Shown here one piece after another: positions 1-26,837 of a stretch of 28,256 nt of DNA. Position 1 is the first letter of the stretch; each line of letters opens with the position of its first letter. The notes beneath the pieces were generated by a model. The model was not told the origin of the DNA and did no database searches. It saw nothing but the letters and a program-made list of their open reading frames with translations. Made by a program: the position numbers and the translations under genes. Location of the stretch: NCBI RefSeq assembly GCF_000003605.2, contig NW_003108085.1:445825-474080 (forward strand), given 5' to 3'. Source of the stretch: Saccoglossus kowalevskii. Taxonomy: Eukaryota; Hemichordata; Enteropneusta; Harrimaniidae.

Positions 1-108
1 AAAAAACAACGTAATAATGACATCCGCTAAAAAACAAAATGGCCGAATTATTGCTATAGAAGAATGTAACATAGAGGGTAATACTATTAGATATAAATGA
101 ATACTTAC

Positions 109-187
109 CAAGCTCACGGGTGTAGACGTCATTTTCTGATCTTCGAACCCTCGAAAGAAAGTCGTTACGAGTAGTGCCTATCGGATC
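109..187 (-). CDS. Internal exon of an unidentified minus-strand gene
   Basis: A 79-nt exon read on the minus strand. The acceptor is strong: a T-rich tract ends in TTTTTACAG at 190-188. The donor is a near-consensus G|GTAAGTAT at 108-101. Only one of the three frames is open across it. It starts in phase 0 and leaves one base at the 3' end, and it encodes 26 residues beginning DPIGTTRNDFLSRVRR and ending VYTREL. The peptide is charged and hydrophilic, with no membrane segment and no motif I recognise. The gene runs off the left edge of the window. Upstream exons must lie at higher coordinates; a phase-0 start exon at 4442-4407 would fit by phase but is weak. Both splice sites and the single open frame are seen; that it is a real exon is inference. 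Confidence 0.4.
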
Positions 188-7589: not shown

Positions 7590-7885
7590 AAAAGGTGGTC
7601 GTCGTTGCGCCACGCATGCGCCGCGCGAGATGTGGGACTCATATAAACAAAGATGGCGACTTTGACTGTTGCGCATACCACACTGAGACGTTACTATGCT
7701 TTAACTGTGTATTTGTTTAGCGATTGGAATGTATCGAAAGAGTCATCGGCGGTAATTAGGGTACGTTGCGCCTTGGTCAAAACACATACTCGTGATTTCC
7801 ATTAAAAGAGAGCATTGGGTTGTGGGAAAAATCAATGTTTATAAACATAAAATGTCGCACATGCGCGGCACAACGACCACCGTAG
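7590..7885 (+). mobile_element. Family A MITE, full-length degenerate copy
   Basis: The left end GGTGGTCGTCGTTGCGCCACGC and the right end, the complement of GGTGGTCGTTGTGCCGCGCAT, form an inverted repeat. The interior has AACAAAGATGGCGACTTTGA, CTGAGACGTTAC, CGGCGGTAATTAG, GGTCAAAACACATACTCGTG and ATTTCCATT, as in the 12290 and 12766 copies. The outermost bases of the left end are deleted, so the duplication cannot be read. It is non-coding. Confidence 0.8.
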
Positions 7886-9841: not shown

Positions 9842-10109
9842 CAATGCTTATCCTAATAGTATGAGCATTTACGCGTTTCCAAACGATCCGAAAGGAAACG
9901 AAAAAGGAAAAGTTCAGACGTACATTCTCCTTATACCATCATACAGCAGATTCGCTGAACAGCTGTTATCATTTTTAAAAGAACAACTTGGATTTATAGA
10001 CAAGTTCCGGAAAAATAAACCTGGCACAATACTAACACTTTTTGAAGAACCAGATTCCGAACCAGCCAATGTTCACCACGTCGGCTTTCAGAAGAGAGTA
10101 ACATGTCGG
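9842..10109 (+). CDS. Internal exon of an unidentified plus-strand protein gene
   Basis: This is the best-supported exon in the window. The acceptor TATTTTCTTTTCATGGATGTAG ends at 9841 and the donor CGG|GTAAGTG begins at 10110. One frame is open through all 268 nt: one leading base completes a codon, then 89 codons, ending in phase 0. The peptide looks like a folded globular segment. It has a polar Gly/Lys turn (DPKGNEKGK), a hydrophobic strand (QTYILLIPSYSRF), an amphipathic helix (AEQLLSFLKEQLGFIDKF), a second strand (GTILTLFEEPD) and VHHVGFQKRVTCR. An ATG at 9861 lies inside the exon but need not be a start. I do not recognise the family. The last exon at 11558 continues the frame. No upstream exon was identified. 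Confidence 0.6.
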
Positions 10110-12289: not shown

Positions 12290-12589
12290 AGAGCGGTGGT
12301 CGTCGTGCCACGCATGCGCGAGATATGGGGGGGGGGTCATATAAACAATGATGGCGACTTTGACTGTTGCGCAGACCAACGAGTACAAACTGAGACGTTA
12401 CCAAGCTTTAACTAGGTAATTTATTTGGTGATTGGAAGATATCGAATGAATCGCCGGCGGCAATTAGTGTACGTCGCACCCAGGTCAAAACTAACTCGTA
12501 CTTGTGATTTCAAATAGAAGAACGCATTGAATCGTGGGGAAAAACACAACACAAATATCGCATATGCGCGGTGCGATGAGCACCGACCT
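12290..12589 (+). mobile_element. Family A MITE, full-length copy
   Basis: It begins AGAGCGGTGGTCGTCGTGCC and ends with a complement reading AGGTCGGTGCTCATCGCACC. The interior carries GATGGCGACTTTGACTGTTG, CGAGTACAAACTGAGACGTT, ACCAAGCTTTAACTAGG and CGCCGGCGGCAATTAG. The flanking triplets TGA and TTA do not match exactly, consistent with age. A G9 run lies inside, near 12328-12336. Confidence 0.8.
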
Positions 12590-12765: not shown

Positions 12766-13028
12766 AGGGCGATGGTCGTCTCGCCATACATGCGCGGGGT
12801 TTGGGACTCGTATGAACAAAGATGGCGACTTTGACTGTTGCGCAGAGAACGGACACAAACTGAGGCGTTACCAAGCTTAATCACGTAATTTATTTGGTGA
12901 TGGGAAGGTATCGAAGGAGTGGCCGGCGGTAATTAGTGCACATTACGCCTTGGTCAAAACACATACTTGTGATTTCCATTAGAAAAGCGTAAATATCGCA
13001 CACATGCGCGGCGCGAAGACTGCCGCCC
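12766..13028 (+). mobile_element. Family A MITE, best-preserved copy (PIF/Harbinger-like)
   Basis: This is the cleanest member. AGGGCGATGGTCGTCTCGCC at the left and the complement AGGGCGGCAGTCTTCGCGCC at the right are flanked on both sides by TAA (12763-12765 and 13029-13031). A 3-bp TWA duplication with G-rich ends is typical of PIF/Harbinger elements. TTAA can also be read across the junctions, so a piggyBac relationship is not fully excluded. At 263 bp it encodes no transposase. It lies 176 bp from another copy in the same orientation. Confidence 0.85.
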
Positions 13029-13323
13029 TTAATACACGTAGGAAATAAATTAAATGCAAAACATTCTCGACGCGACCTTCGTTATCACTTATAATACCCA
13101 TCGCCTGTTTCACAAATCGGCGTAAGGGGTCGACCATTATAATTCACGGGGGTGGCTTGAAGATTTGTTTAAACAAAATACCAGCTAGACACCGAAAATA
13201 ATACAAAATACATGCAAGGCATAGCAGAAAAAATGTTGGCGCATTCAAAAAATAAAATAAAAATGCGCTGGCCACTCTCTTCCAACCACCCCCATGATTC
13301 AAAATGGTTTACCCCTAAGCGAG

Positions 13324-13330
13324 TATAAAA
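13324..13330 (+). promoter_or_regulatory. TATA box (TATAAAA) of a candidate plus-strand promoter
   Basis: GAGTATAAAATAGAGGG is a strong TATA element. Initiator-like TCACTTC (13364-13370) and TCAGT (13369-13373) lie 40-47 bp downstream, slightly further than usual. CCACCCCC lies upstream, near 13286. The next convincing acceptor downstream is the one at 13663, so the transcript could be the short gene that ends at about 13900. Confidence 0.35.
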
Positions 13331-13334
13331 TAGA

Positions 13335-13663
13335 GGGACACACACAAAAGAAACAAACTTCGCTCACTTCAGTACAGGTGTAGTCAAAGACGTTCATTGT
13401 GATTTGATTAACTTTCAAGTCAAGCTTGGATAACTTACTAGTAGTTGATTTTTATTTATCGCGAACACGGTAATTTTCTTTTTTTAGACTGTCGCGTTCC
13501 ACCTATTATTTTTAATGAACGATGAAAGGCAGTAGAACGAGTTGAATGCGATAGCAGTCAAGATATTCTTGGAAAAGTGCCTTCATCACGCGGAACACAT
13601 TTGAGAAATTTCAAATTATGTTTTTTTTTTCTACTACATTAATGATTAGGTGCGCTTTTACAG
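13335..13663. other. Possible 5' UTR and first intron; no coding frame
   Basis: It lies between the TATA box and the acceptor at 13663. A possible donor, TACAG|GTGTAG, is at 13377. ATGs here open only very short frames. No other structure is seen beyond a T11 run at about 13620. Confidence 0.25.
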
Positions 13664-18499: not shown

Positions 18500-18505
18500 T
18501 TTATT
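18500..18505 (-). terminator. AATAAA poly(A) signal for the minus-strand peptide gene
   Basis: On the minus strand AAAATAAATC lies 249 nt past the stop codon at 18754. The downstream sequence is A-rich rather than GT-rich, so the signal is only moderate. Confidence 0.3.
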
Positions 18506-18753
18506 TTACTACCTAATTAGTTTAATTAGTCGGTATAGTTACGCTTGGGGATTAAGGATCGTAAAAACGAATGCGATATAACCCAATCATTACGTTGCGA
18601 CGCACACAGAATCAACGAACTGAAATGAACATTGGCTTGTGCTGTGAGTACCACGTACTGCTTGCTACGTGGAGTACATTGCAAGAAGTTGCGCGCAAGA
18701 AAACCGATTTCTTCATTTTGTTCTAAAATTCATATTCCTTGGTTGACGGCGGA

Positions 18754-18888
18754 TCAATTGCCGATCTTCTGTCTTCTTATTGCGAAAAATAACGGCGAAA
18801 ATAAACTTTGCAAGAACTGTCGGAGTTGTCTTTCTGAAGATTCGCGTACTGTCGATGTACCGTGAACACATTGCAGGTGGTTCGCGGG
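18754..18888 (-). CDS. Candidate exon 2 of a small secreted peptide precursor
   Basis: An acceptor of high quality (GATTTTTGTTTCAG, ending at 18889) opens 44 codons in phase 0, the phase in which the signal-peptide exon at 19283-19215 ends. TGA follows at 18756-18754. The frame starts PANHLQCVHG, has a charged middle, then a predicted amphipathic helix RQLRQFLQSLFSPLFFA, a dibasic RR and QKIGN. With exon 1 the precursor is 67 residues with three cysteines, one of them after the signal. LRQFLQ also occurs near the start of vertebrate preprosomatostatin propeptides. Six residues are too few to claim homology, and no somatostatin-like cyclic core is present. It could instead be an unrelated peptide or chance. 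The minus-strand frame overlaps other open frames. Confidence 0.35.
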   Translation of the reverse strand, partial: PANHLQCVHGTSTVRESSERQLRQFLQSLFSPLFFAIRRQKIGN

Positions 18889-19214
18889 CTGAAACAAAAA
18901 TCTTGTAGCAATTGGCGAACTCTTGTAGCAATTTCCATCTTTTAGTGGACTTTTCTATCACATCCCGCGCGCTTTTTGCGGGTTTCCCGTCTGAATATAT
19001 ACGTTGTGATCAGGAAAATGGTCGAGCGTGCCGGTCGGGAGACAGACCACCTTCAATTTGCGAACATGCACGTGAATTTATGACATGCAAAACGTGAGTT
19101 GACAATACCAGAATAAGAAGAAGGAGAAGGCATTACAGCACACAAAAATGCGGGCTAACAAATATTCACAGATAAGCATACAGTAAGTTGAATGAGACAA
19201 CTAATATTTCTTAC
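18889..19214 (-). other. Putative 326-bp intron of the minus-strand peptide gene
   Basis: It begins GTAAGAAAT and ends TTTTTGTTTCAG; CACTAAAA about 50 nt before the end could be a branch site. On the opposite strand it contains a Cys-rich open segment with its own donor-like GTGAGT (see findings). Confidence 0.35.
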
Positions 19215-19283
19215 CTCAAACGGCGCTGCAAGTACAAAACCCAGAGCACAAACGAGAAGTAGCGCATAGTGAAGACAAAACAT
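19215..19283 (-). CDS. First coding exon: signal peptide of a secreted protein
   Basis: ATG at 19283 opens 23 codons ending exactly at GAG|GTAAGA, a consensus donor in phase 0. The peptide is a textbook signal sequence: a short N-terminal part MFCLHY, a hydrophobic core ALLLVCALGFVLA, then AAPFE, with probable cleavage after an Ala of VLA or VLAA. No other frame gives such a product. A signal peptide ending on an exon boundary is common in genes for neuropeptides, hormones and small secreted proteins. Upstream are a TATA-like ATAAAAAG, about 90 nt of 5' leader, and CACGCCC and TGCGCATGCG motifs. The rest of the protein depends on which downstream exon is used; the nearest candidate is 18888-18754. 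Confidence 0.55.
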
Positions 19284-19372
19284 GATGCCAACCTGGAAAG
19301 AAACGTGTGCCTGGAGAGAGAGTCACAGCAGAGTCTTGTTCGGAAACACTACATACACTGTCAGCTGCTCAC

Positions 19373-19380
19373 CTTTTTAT
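19373..19380 (-). promoter_or_regulatory. TATA-like box of the minus-strand peptide gene
   Basis: On the minus strand CTGATAAAAAGGTGAGC lies 90-97 nt before the ATG at 19283. Initiation about 30 nt downstream would give a leader of roughly 65 nt. Further upstream are GCGCATGCGTGCC and CCACGCCCAC, plausible NRF1-like and KLF/Sp-like sites. Confidence 0.35.
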
Positions 19381-19439
19381 CAGAGCGCGACTGCCATGGC
19401 ACGCATGCGCATAGCTCACATCGAAATATGTGGGCGTGG

Positions 19440-20173
19440 TCGTTTGTCAGAATAGATATGACCGCCGCCGTGTTTCGTGTAAATTGGAGACAGTTGTCAC
19501 TAAATCAGTGCATCCATACGACCATGTCGTCCACTGATGGTTTCTATGGAAACGTGATGCAAGCAGTTTACGTACATAAACGGTGACGTATCGGGTTTAA
19601 TATACTTTGGGGCGCAGGCAATGACCGATTTACCCCGTAGATGACCAACATCCCGGGCGTGTACCTCCATGAACAGGCAACGAACTTTTCTGAAGTTCGC
19701 AAAAGCTCTCGACTGACATCGATGGCAGATTGCAGTGTGTGCATATAAGTTGCTATCGGAATAAACATGGATTTAAGAATGATTTGTTTTTTTTCTCACA
19801 CTTCCCAATCACACCAGTGTGTCATTTCCCCCTGGACACCCAAAGTCAAACGGATGAAAGTTGGGCTGAATGTGAAATTGGGAAATTAAAAATGGTGAAA
19901 AATAGAATATAGGTGCAAAGTTAATTCTACCGTGAATTGAAGCTTACAAACATATACTAACATGTGTCGTTAGTAGGAAAGTTTCCAAATGATGTTGCAC
20001 AAAATGCGAAACACAATAAAAAAAAAAGTTTAATGAAGTACGTTGTCAAGGGGATATTATAGTACTCAACGGTGTTGTAAGGCCAAAAAAAATTGTTTTG
20101 TTGCCCTCAGCGATCGACCGAAAAATATGAAATATCGGGTCGCGTTTTTTCCCCATATACCTCGGCTATTTAC
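19440..20173. other. Upstream flank of the peptide gene; no exon seen
   Basis: Open frames of 60-105 codons exist on the plus strand (19269-19586 runs antisense over the promoter and exon), without splice support. No repeat ends were recognised. Regulatory sequence for the minus-strand gene would be expected here. Confidence 0.3.
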
Positions 20174-24084: not shown

Positions 24085-24748
24085 ATACATCTTTTTTTTC
24101 CAAGGATACATCATGAGAATCCCGAAATCCAAAACAGAATCAGCGAACTTCTGTGTGTGAAGTCCGGTCAAACCCTATGAGCAGCCATGTTTGTTTTTAT
24201 TACTAGAGGACGCTTACGCGCGTAATCGTTCCATATTTGGAATTCGCATTTCCTAATATGGTAGTATGAAAATACCCCGTAAAATACCGCCAAATTACGG
24301 TACGCTGTAACTTATGGCATTACAGTGACAGATGTATAATAAACATTACTATCAGGGGAAAAAATAAATGATTATCCCAACTTATATTATATACCCATAC
24401 ACCATACAGATCTAGATGTATCGCAAGATCATCAAGTTGTTTGAAATATGAAAAGTATTTTATATATAAACAGATGTGGATATTGAAAAAAAATCTGAAG
24501 AATTGTGTTTACTTAACACTATATTATACTACGTGATCAAGTGAAGTAATTCATTGAGAACATTGACCATCAGACATTTTAAATTAAAATAGTTCTAGTC
24601 TCAACAAATACTTACTACCCGGATATGATATTTTTTTGTTAGGAACGAGACGAATGCATAATTTCCCTACGCCGAAGATGATATTGAACGTATGCTGGAA
24701 TTTCTCACTGAAAGTATGGTTTGAGGAAATAATTTTTCAACAAACTAT
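24085..24748. other. AT-rich, no gene seen
   Basis: No splice-supported frame on either strand. Nothing repetitive noticed except A/T runs. Confidence 0.4.
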
Positions 24749-25040
24749 CGGTCACTGGTAGGTTAGTCGTTATCGCACCAGACTCATGATCGGTAGACCC
24801 AAGTTCAAATCCTACCTCCGGCTGAACATTAAAAGAGTCGACCCCTACCCTGGGTGAGAGTGCCACAGTCTCATTAGGAAGGCCAATTGCACTGGCCGAG
24901 ATTCATTCACTAACGAATGCGACTTTGACTATCGGCATTCCAGTGGCGGACAAACTGTATTCTCTTGCTTCATTGCAGCTGAATTTCTACAGGAATTAAA
25001 TACAAATAAAATAAATAAGATAAATACAAATAGGCTAAAT
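24749..25040 (+). mobile_element. tRNA-derived SINE with a tRNA-Met-like head
   Basis: The head has an A-box-like GGTTAGTCGTTATCGCACC and a B box AGTTCAAATCC (24802-24812). The anticodon arm CCAGA-CTCATGA-TCGG reads as anticodon CAT, as in elongator tRNA-Met. After the head comes a non-tRNA body with TCGACCCCTACCCTGGGTGA, GGCCAATTGCACTGGCCGAG and TCGGCATTCCAGTGGCGG. The tail is A-rich, with repeated AAATACAAATAAAATAAAT-type units. Pol III promoter, body and repeated tail give the standard SINE layout at about 290 bp. It is transcribed by RNA polymerase III and moved by a partner LINE, as is known for the class. Confidence 0.85.
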
Positions 25041-26069: not shown

Positions 26070-26457
26070 GTGATGGTGCATGGGTGAGGCACGACGGTAC
26101 ATGGGTAAGTCGTGATGACATATGGGTGACGCGTGATGCTTCATGGGTTAGCCGTGAAGGTACATGAGTGAGGCGTAGTGGCGCATGGGTGAGGCGTGAT
26201 GGCGCCTGGGTGAGGCGTGACGGTACATGAGTAAGGCGTGATGGCGCATGGGTGAGGCGTGAAGGTACATGAGTAAGGCGCGATGGCGCATGGGGGAGGC
26301 GTGATGGCGCATGGGTGAGGCGTGATGGTACATGGCTTAGGTGTGACGGTACATGGGGGAGGCGTGATAGTGCGTAGGTTAGCCGTGAAGGTGCATGAGT
26401 GAGGCGTAATGACGCATGGGTGAGGCGTGATAGTACATGGGTGAGGCGTGTTGGTGC
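26070..26457. repeat. 21-bp minisatellite, about 18 units
   Basis: The unit approximates CATGGGTGAGGCGTGATGGYR, with variants at the last bases (GGCG, GGTA, GGTG). Because 21 is a multiple of three, one frame on the minus strand stays open as an (LTHAPSR)n-like heptapeptide run, giving a 203-codon frame with unrelated flanks. I interpret this as a by-product of repeat geometry. There is no splice or start evidence for translation. Confidence 0.93.
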
Positions 26458-26837
26458 ATTAACTTCAATAAATTTGATTTTGCTTGATAAAAATATTGTT
26501 TTTCCTCCATAAAAACGAATAAATTTAACATTGTCGAACGTCCCCATGAACATATCACAATACGTGATGAATTCAACATTGTAGAGTGTATGGCGCACAA
26601 ATCTAAATTGATATATTGAAATCAAAATTTCAATATTTAATGTGTATTGGTAGAACCCGACCTAGTTTCAACGTATACGCAAAGGGACCGGCATATCCGG
26701 TGGCAGACAAAACATTGTGGTTTTAGTCAGCCGTCATCAATAGCCGAAACATTTTTCATATTTTGTAGTCGTCAGTAAACGTTTTTCCGATTTGTACAAA
26801 TTTATCGTCTGCGCACATTGTCCGCATGTAACCAGTT
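26458..26837. other. No gene seen
   Basis: An AT-rich left half continues the minus-strand minisatellite frame without motif. The right half is mixed. No signals noticed. Confidence 0.4.

Follow-up and report, generated by a model that had tools for sequence, protein, structure and literature searches.

The minus strand of the window, i.e. the whole stretch of 28,256 nt analysed here, very probably contains a real signal-peptide exon, which starts at the ATG at 19283 and ends at a donor after 19215. It is probable that a real gene of an animal-like genome starts at this place, with a leader exon, a short intron and then the exon bearing both the ATG and the signal peptide (Table 1). Altogether, this is probably a real signal exon of a gene of an ordinary kind, whose model is unproven. 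The open reading frame, the cluster of splice motifs and the signal-peptide character are plain features of the DNA; from there on we infer that the gene would be transcribed and spliced, and its product secreted. Gene predictors often miss small secreted-protein genes; in one sea cucumber just 20 of 44 neuropeptide precursors were annotated in the genome, according to an extract of PMC6586643. If confirmed, the exon would add one such gene and correct both the start and the end proposed for it in a preliminary description, no general view being altered.

Table 1. Positions in the window of the features discussed
Feature	Position	Strand	Character	Basis
Proposed end of leader exon	19373..19381	minus	GATAAAAAG/gtgagc; more probably a leader exon's 3' end than the TATA-like box of the preliminary description	
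Proposed leader intron	19311..19372 (62 nt); 19293..19372 (80 nt) with the 19292 acceptor	minus	gtgagc...ctctctccag	Suggested by the best minus donor and the two best acceptors
Signal-peptide exon as internal exon	19215..19310; alternative 5' end 19292	minus	96 or 78 nt	Predicted splicing use
Coding part of signal exon	19215..19283	minus	MFCLHYALLLVCALGFVLAAPFE; VLA/A-type cleavage motif; phase-0 end	Own heuristic for signal peptide
Intron of the preliminary description	18889..19214 (326 nt)	minus		Well supported at the donor only
Proposed exon 2 and stop	18754..18888	minus	PANHLQCVHGTSTVRESSERQLRQFLQSLFSPLFFAIRRQKIGN and stop; unproven	Acceptor 1.95; unremarkable coding scores
AATAAA hexamer cited as polyadenylation signal	18500..18505	minus		Background frequency
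Alternative downstream exon	109..187	minus	Entered in phase 0 and left in phase 1; DPIGTTRNDFLSRVRRSENDVYTREL, including a furin-like RVRR	Acceptor 3.05; donor 4.30
Possible further exon beyond an 82-nt intron (27-108)	1..26	minus	Cut by the window edge; tentative, the weakest part	Acceptor 3.15 at 26

The probable signal-peptide exon and its splice sites

The reading frame of 69 nt ends at GAG/gtaaga, in phase 0, so that the exon almost wholly made of signal peptide and its consensus donor, both of which figured in the preliminary description, are borne out. By our own heuristic the hydrophobic core has a mean Kyte-Doolittle value of 3.03 and the cleavage motif follows residue 19; an N-terminal signal peptide, one of the features tested for a neuropeptide or peptide-hormone precursor, is thus present by this heuristic. 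Nevertheless MFCLHYALLLVCALGFVLAAPFE has no K or R on the N-terminal side of its hydrophobic core, which counts against a signal peptide. The adenine content of the 69 nt is 10%, against 31% in the window, and is the lowest among the nine computed of the 21 signal-like ATG reading frames that the heuristic finds in the window (8 on the plus and 13 on the minus strand, some nested). Coding regions of vertebrate signal sequences are reported as adenine-poor (extract of PMC3077370).

The splice scores, given to every GT and AG on both strands, rest on vertebrate consensus frequencies and not on weights trained on this species. On this scale the donor that follows 19215 has rank 6 of 3455, and the acceptors at 19310 and 19292, which precede the ATG by 27 and 9 nt respectively, rank 2 and 3 of 2533 (scores 8.36 and 8.05). 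Considering the minus strand only, 19373 (score 7.43) and 19215 are donors 1 and 2 of 1756 GT sites, while 19310 and 19292 are acceptors 1 and 2 of 1276 AG sites; the four sites all fall inside 160 nt, in an order workable for splicing. The acceptor and donor of the exon 19215-19310 sum to 14.5, the best pair of the window, the next candidate elsewhere reaching 8.6. Among the 21 signal-like reading frames, only MFCLHYALLLVCALGFVLAAPFE combines a strong donor with a strong upstream acceptor.

How often chance would produce such an arrangement was estimated by controls whose thresholds all derive from the observed values. When sites were placed at random, the best acceptor fell 50-120 nt past the best donor in 4967 of 2,000,000 placements, with also a second donor 30-300 nt further along in 47 of them. 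In simulated strands, whose Markov model disregards local composition, a signal-like ATG reading frame with a donor of at least 6 occurred in 31 of 1000, and with an acceptor of at least 8 in addition in none; the internal-exon score had a mean maximum of 9.7 and reached at least 14.1 in 5 of 400. The exon stands above chance because the combination of donor and acceptor is absent from the 1000 simulated strands and unique among the 21 reading frames. Besides, in no minus-strand frame does a Pfam match at the cut-off embed the signal exon in a known domain.

The window itself is eukaryotic in character, as seen from its composition (37.6% GC, with a CpG observed/expected ratio of 1.23), its intron-like signals and a six-frame translation without significant Pfam domain. 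For an animal genome with methylation this ratio, a value for the whole window, seems high.

A probable leader intron upstream of the ATG

All four splice sites are accounted for if a leader exon ends at 19373 and, after an intron of 62 or 80 nt, the ATG exon begins at 19310 or 19292; in our judgement it is quite probable that the signal exon is internal and lies behind such an intron. The preliminary description had seen instead a first exon driven by a TATA-like box. An ATAAAA is indeed present from 19380, but it overlaps the top minus-strand donor, and no full TATA[AT]A[AG] match occurs in the 317 nt that precede the ATG. Because of this overlap, and because the two top acceptors precede the ATG, a TATA-driven first exon is disfavoured: it leaves the donor 19373 and the acceptors 19310 and 19292 with no role.

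Two observations do not favour the leader intron. Its 62-nt form has no branch-point-like motif near the acceptor 19310, the sole one sitting 50 nt off, near the donor. Moreover, an extract of PMC3077370 reports that human signal regions are adenine-poorer in genes without leader introns, and that leader introns are mildly depleted in signal-peptide genes (odds ratio 0.84); on this human pattern, a signal region as adenine-poor as the one seen here speaks for an unspliced leader.

If the leader intron is real, the leader exon would end at 19373 and the 62 or 80 nt would be spliced out, and the next exon, from 19310 or 19292 to 19215, would bear the start codon and the complete signal peptide. 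Translation of this message would take the ribosome to the ER. After cleavage by signal peptidase behind VLA, or one residue further on, the rest of the protein would leave the cell or be routed elsewhere within the secretory pathway. The protein body would begin in a phase-0 exon, for which 18888 is one candidate among many and 187 another, unless it lies outside the window. As to the function of the product, nothing is claimable beyond its entry into the secretory pathway.

Candidate continuations and alternative readings

The preliminary description continued from the TATA-driven first exon through the 326-nt intron to a terminal exon, 18888-18754, giving a 44-residue secreted amphipathic peptide. 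We regard this model as doubtful, although our estimates for the different readings are not mutually exclusive: the join to exon 2 could hold alongside the leader intron. All the parts of the model are in phase, and the 44 codons, opened by ttgtttcag before 18888 and closed by the stop at 18756-18754, are there. The acceptor, however, was called strong and scores 1.95 (rank 120 of 2533 on both strands), far below the 8.36 and 8.05 found upstream of the ATG, and of the 120 acceptors scoring at least 1.9, 12 open at least 44 codons, so that such a stretch is no more than chance provides. Downstream of the signal exon there are 88 phase-0 acceptors scoring at least 0; among the 21 listed continuations (at least 35 open codons, or a donor above 3), 9 have an acceptor better than that of 18888.

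The best argument for exon 2 is its short distance from the signal exon: of 5132 arbitrary positions just 281 (5.5%) have a terminal exon of the same quality within 327 nt, and 2.2% have one with an AATAAA within 300 nt as well. The junction of 19215 to 18888 is nonetheless inseparable from chance and is not supported. The coding measures, which are based on general amino-acid frequencies of proteins, do not single exon 2 out from 636 overlapping open segments: its amino-acid score is matched or exceeded by 32% of them and its RNY score by 92%. The cited AATAAA does exist, from 18505, in a window that contains one per 554 nt on the plus and one per 642 nt on the minus strand. The dibasic site (RR) and the amphipathic helix attributed to the peptide can likewise be found, the former being shared by 164 of 315 open segments of 44 residues; of the same 315, 4% (over 11 residues) or 9% (over 17 residues) have an amphipathic moment at least as high, a mild point in favour. 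With its middling acceptor, its lack of coding signature and both AATAAA and dibasic site at background level, exon 2 (18888-18757) does not stand out from chance. In this region all three minus frames are open over 18780-18941, and the longest open reading frame, of 98 residues (19009-18716), is passed by 24% of the segments for amino-acid score and 55% for RNY, and matches nothing in Pfam at E 1.

It is unlikely, but worth considering, that the signal exon joins instead the segment 187-109, in a prohormone-like protein running past the window edge. RVRR resembles the furin motif; like the RR of exon 2, it is a candidate for the basic cleavage sites that flank the bioactive peptide in neuropeptide or peptide-hormone precursors. 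The segment has a phase-0 entry with splice sites at both ends and a coding-like composition, in the top 4.1% of the 636 segments for amino-acid score and the top 1.4% for RNY; being of 26 residues against 44, however, it attains extreme scores more easily. Another in-phase acceptor follows 82 nt further, at 26, and keeps the frame open up to the window edge. In simulated 19-kb strands, with thresholds chosen post hoc and the same general amino-acid frequencies, a phase-0 exon with such splice scores appeared in 241 of 1500, and one with matching coding scores too in a single one of the 1500. Against the join, the intron would span 19,027 nt and enclose the possible plus-strand exon 9843-10109, the summed splice score (7.3) stays below the mean maximum of simulated strands (9.7), and neither the segment nor its joins have a significant relative in Pfam or the PDB. 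The segment may belong to the signal-exon gene or to another one. That the signal exon, the 19-kb intron and a furin-type propeptide exon, DPIGTTRNDFLS-RVRR-SENDVYTREL..., would form a new short prohormone family, without significant Pfam, NCBIfam or PDB match, seems to us very unlikely.

Equally improbable is that the exon is a symmetric phase-0 internal one which codes not for a signal peptide but for a membrane-spanning helix within a larger membrane protein. The frame is open back to 19310, with AHVSFQVGI preceding the M, and a leader exon ending at 19373 would be open in phase over 44 codons back to a stop, without Met. A hydrophobic 820-residue reading frame of Ramlibacter albus shares the 12 residues CALGFVLAAPFE; we take the resemblance as due to chance, but it illustrates that a membrane helix can have such a sequence. 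Against this reading stand the ATG directly after the acceptors, followed by a signal-peptide layout with its cleavage motif, and the presence, upstream on the minus strand, of just one other internal-exon candidate above threshold (24779-24849). Finally, that chance accounts for everything and no gene exists at 18500-19380 is highly improbable: each feature taken singly is common in the background and a few simulated strands attain the splice score, but none of 1000 simulated strands reached the combination, and the top splice sites are clustered.

Comparison with known families and further observations

For the predicted 67-residue product of exons 1 and 2, which the preliminary description assigned to no known family, nothing significant was found in Pfam, NCBIfam or the PDB, and this agreement concerns that conjectured product only. 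With a limit of E 10, Pfam had no match for exon 1 or exon 2 by itself, for 187-110 or for 9843-10109, and the PDB had none for 187-110 or the joins; NCBIfam, with a limit of E 1, had none for three proteins. Scanning all six frames against Pfam with stops read as X gave a single match with E not above 0.1, to Spectrin_SYNE1 in one minus frame (E 0.01, 15.9 bits against a cut-off of 35).

One resemblance was to the calcitonin family (PF00214), matched over residues 2-60 of the join at E 0.11, with 13.5 bits against a gathering cut-off of 22.3; an E-value of this size is expected from about one random protein in nine, and the scan comprised ten proteins. In vertebrate procalcitonin APF follows the signal peptide, as it does in the product considered here. 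The match requires the true order of exon 2, which speaks for the preliminary model: it disappears when exon 1 or exon 2 is scanned by itself, when exon 2 is reversed, and in five hand-scrambled versions of exon 2, of unchecked composition. Members of the family carry two cysteines close to the N-terminus of the mature peptide (extracts of PMC6586643 and PMC6283891), the DH31 branch being described without this pair (extract of PMC6002491). The proposed product has no such pair, exon 2 containing a single Cys, and it stops after 44 codons without the Pro-Gly-basic site that provides the C-terminal Pro-amide; across the window, none of the three minus frames contains PG[KR]. On the minus strand below 19215, single-frame translations, which miss peptides split by an intron or lying beyond the window, give one unconvincing match to the pattern C-x(2-6)-C-x(10-35)-G-[KR], at 13308-13376. 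With three defining features lacking, i.e. profile score, cysteine pair and Pro-Gly-basic site, the calcitonin family was dropped.

Other weak matches were taken as chance. DUF4747, found with the 66-residue stop-to-stop reading frame 18757-18954 that holds exon 2, has a better E-value than calcitonin (0.017, 15 bits against a cut-off of 27), both remaining below their cut-off score, and is lost with exon 2 alone. Below threshold as well were SBSPON_C (E 0.066, reading frame 19503-19772), HA2_C and GAPT (E 0.15-0.26, exon 1 joined to 187-109) and SoFic-like_C (E 0.11, 187-109 with its continuation). None of 24 pattern-matching stretches in viral contigs was confirmed as a relative; of 300 in bacterial and archaeal genomes one was, the Ramlibacter albus sequence mentioned above (41% over 49 residues), attributed to chance in view of the great size of the collection, from which short patterns had first picked the candidates.

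The gene organization has a precedent. Starfish SALMFamide precursors, which are neuropeptide precursors encoded by two two-exon genes, have a first coding exon for the signal peptide followed by a phase-0 intron, like the exon described here, whereas kisspeptin precursors have a phase-1 intron at this place (extract of PMC9400282). The exon 2 proposed in the preliminary description differs from SALMFamide precursors by the lack of an amidation motif (no G[KR][KR]). Introns of phase 1 are overabundant around signal cleavage sites, as stated in an extract of PMC1626468, and the phase 0 of our exon, being unlike this class, counts against it. A small signal-peptide exon with strong splice sites is also found in genes for secreted proteins in general. 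A signal exon followed by a phase-0 intron is thus an ordinary plan for secreted-peptide genes, one which identifies no family.

Elsewhere in the window, no RNA family (at gathering thresholds) and no tRNA were detected. The plus strand is open over 89 residues at 9843-10109 (NAYPNSMSIYAFPNDPKG...FQKRVTCR), a possible exon which ends at a very good donor, CGG/gtaagtg, the second best of that strand; it has no Pfam or NCBIfam match, and its best PDB hit is at E 0.098. Also on the plus strand, 24740-24880 resembles by eye a tRNA-derived short interspersed element, ARAGORN being negative for a tRNA. A dispersed repeat family has direct copies at 7623-7810, 12321-12491 and 12792-12987, 74-91% alike, and an inverted copy at 733-834, 86-89% complementary to them. 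Lastly, a 21-bp tandem repeat of 18.6 copies occupies 26070-26459, within a minus-strand stretch of 215 codons free of stops.
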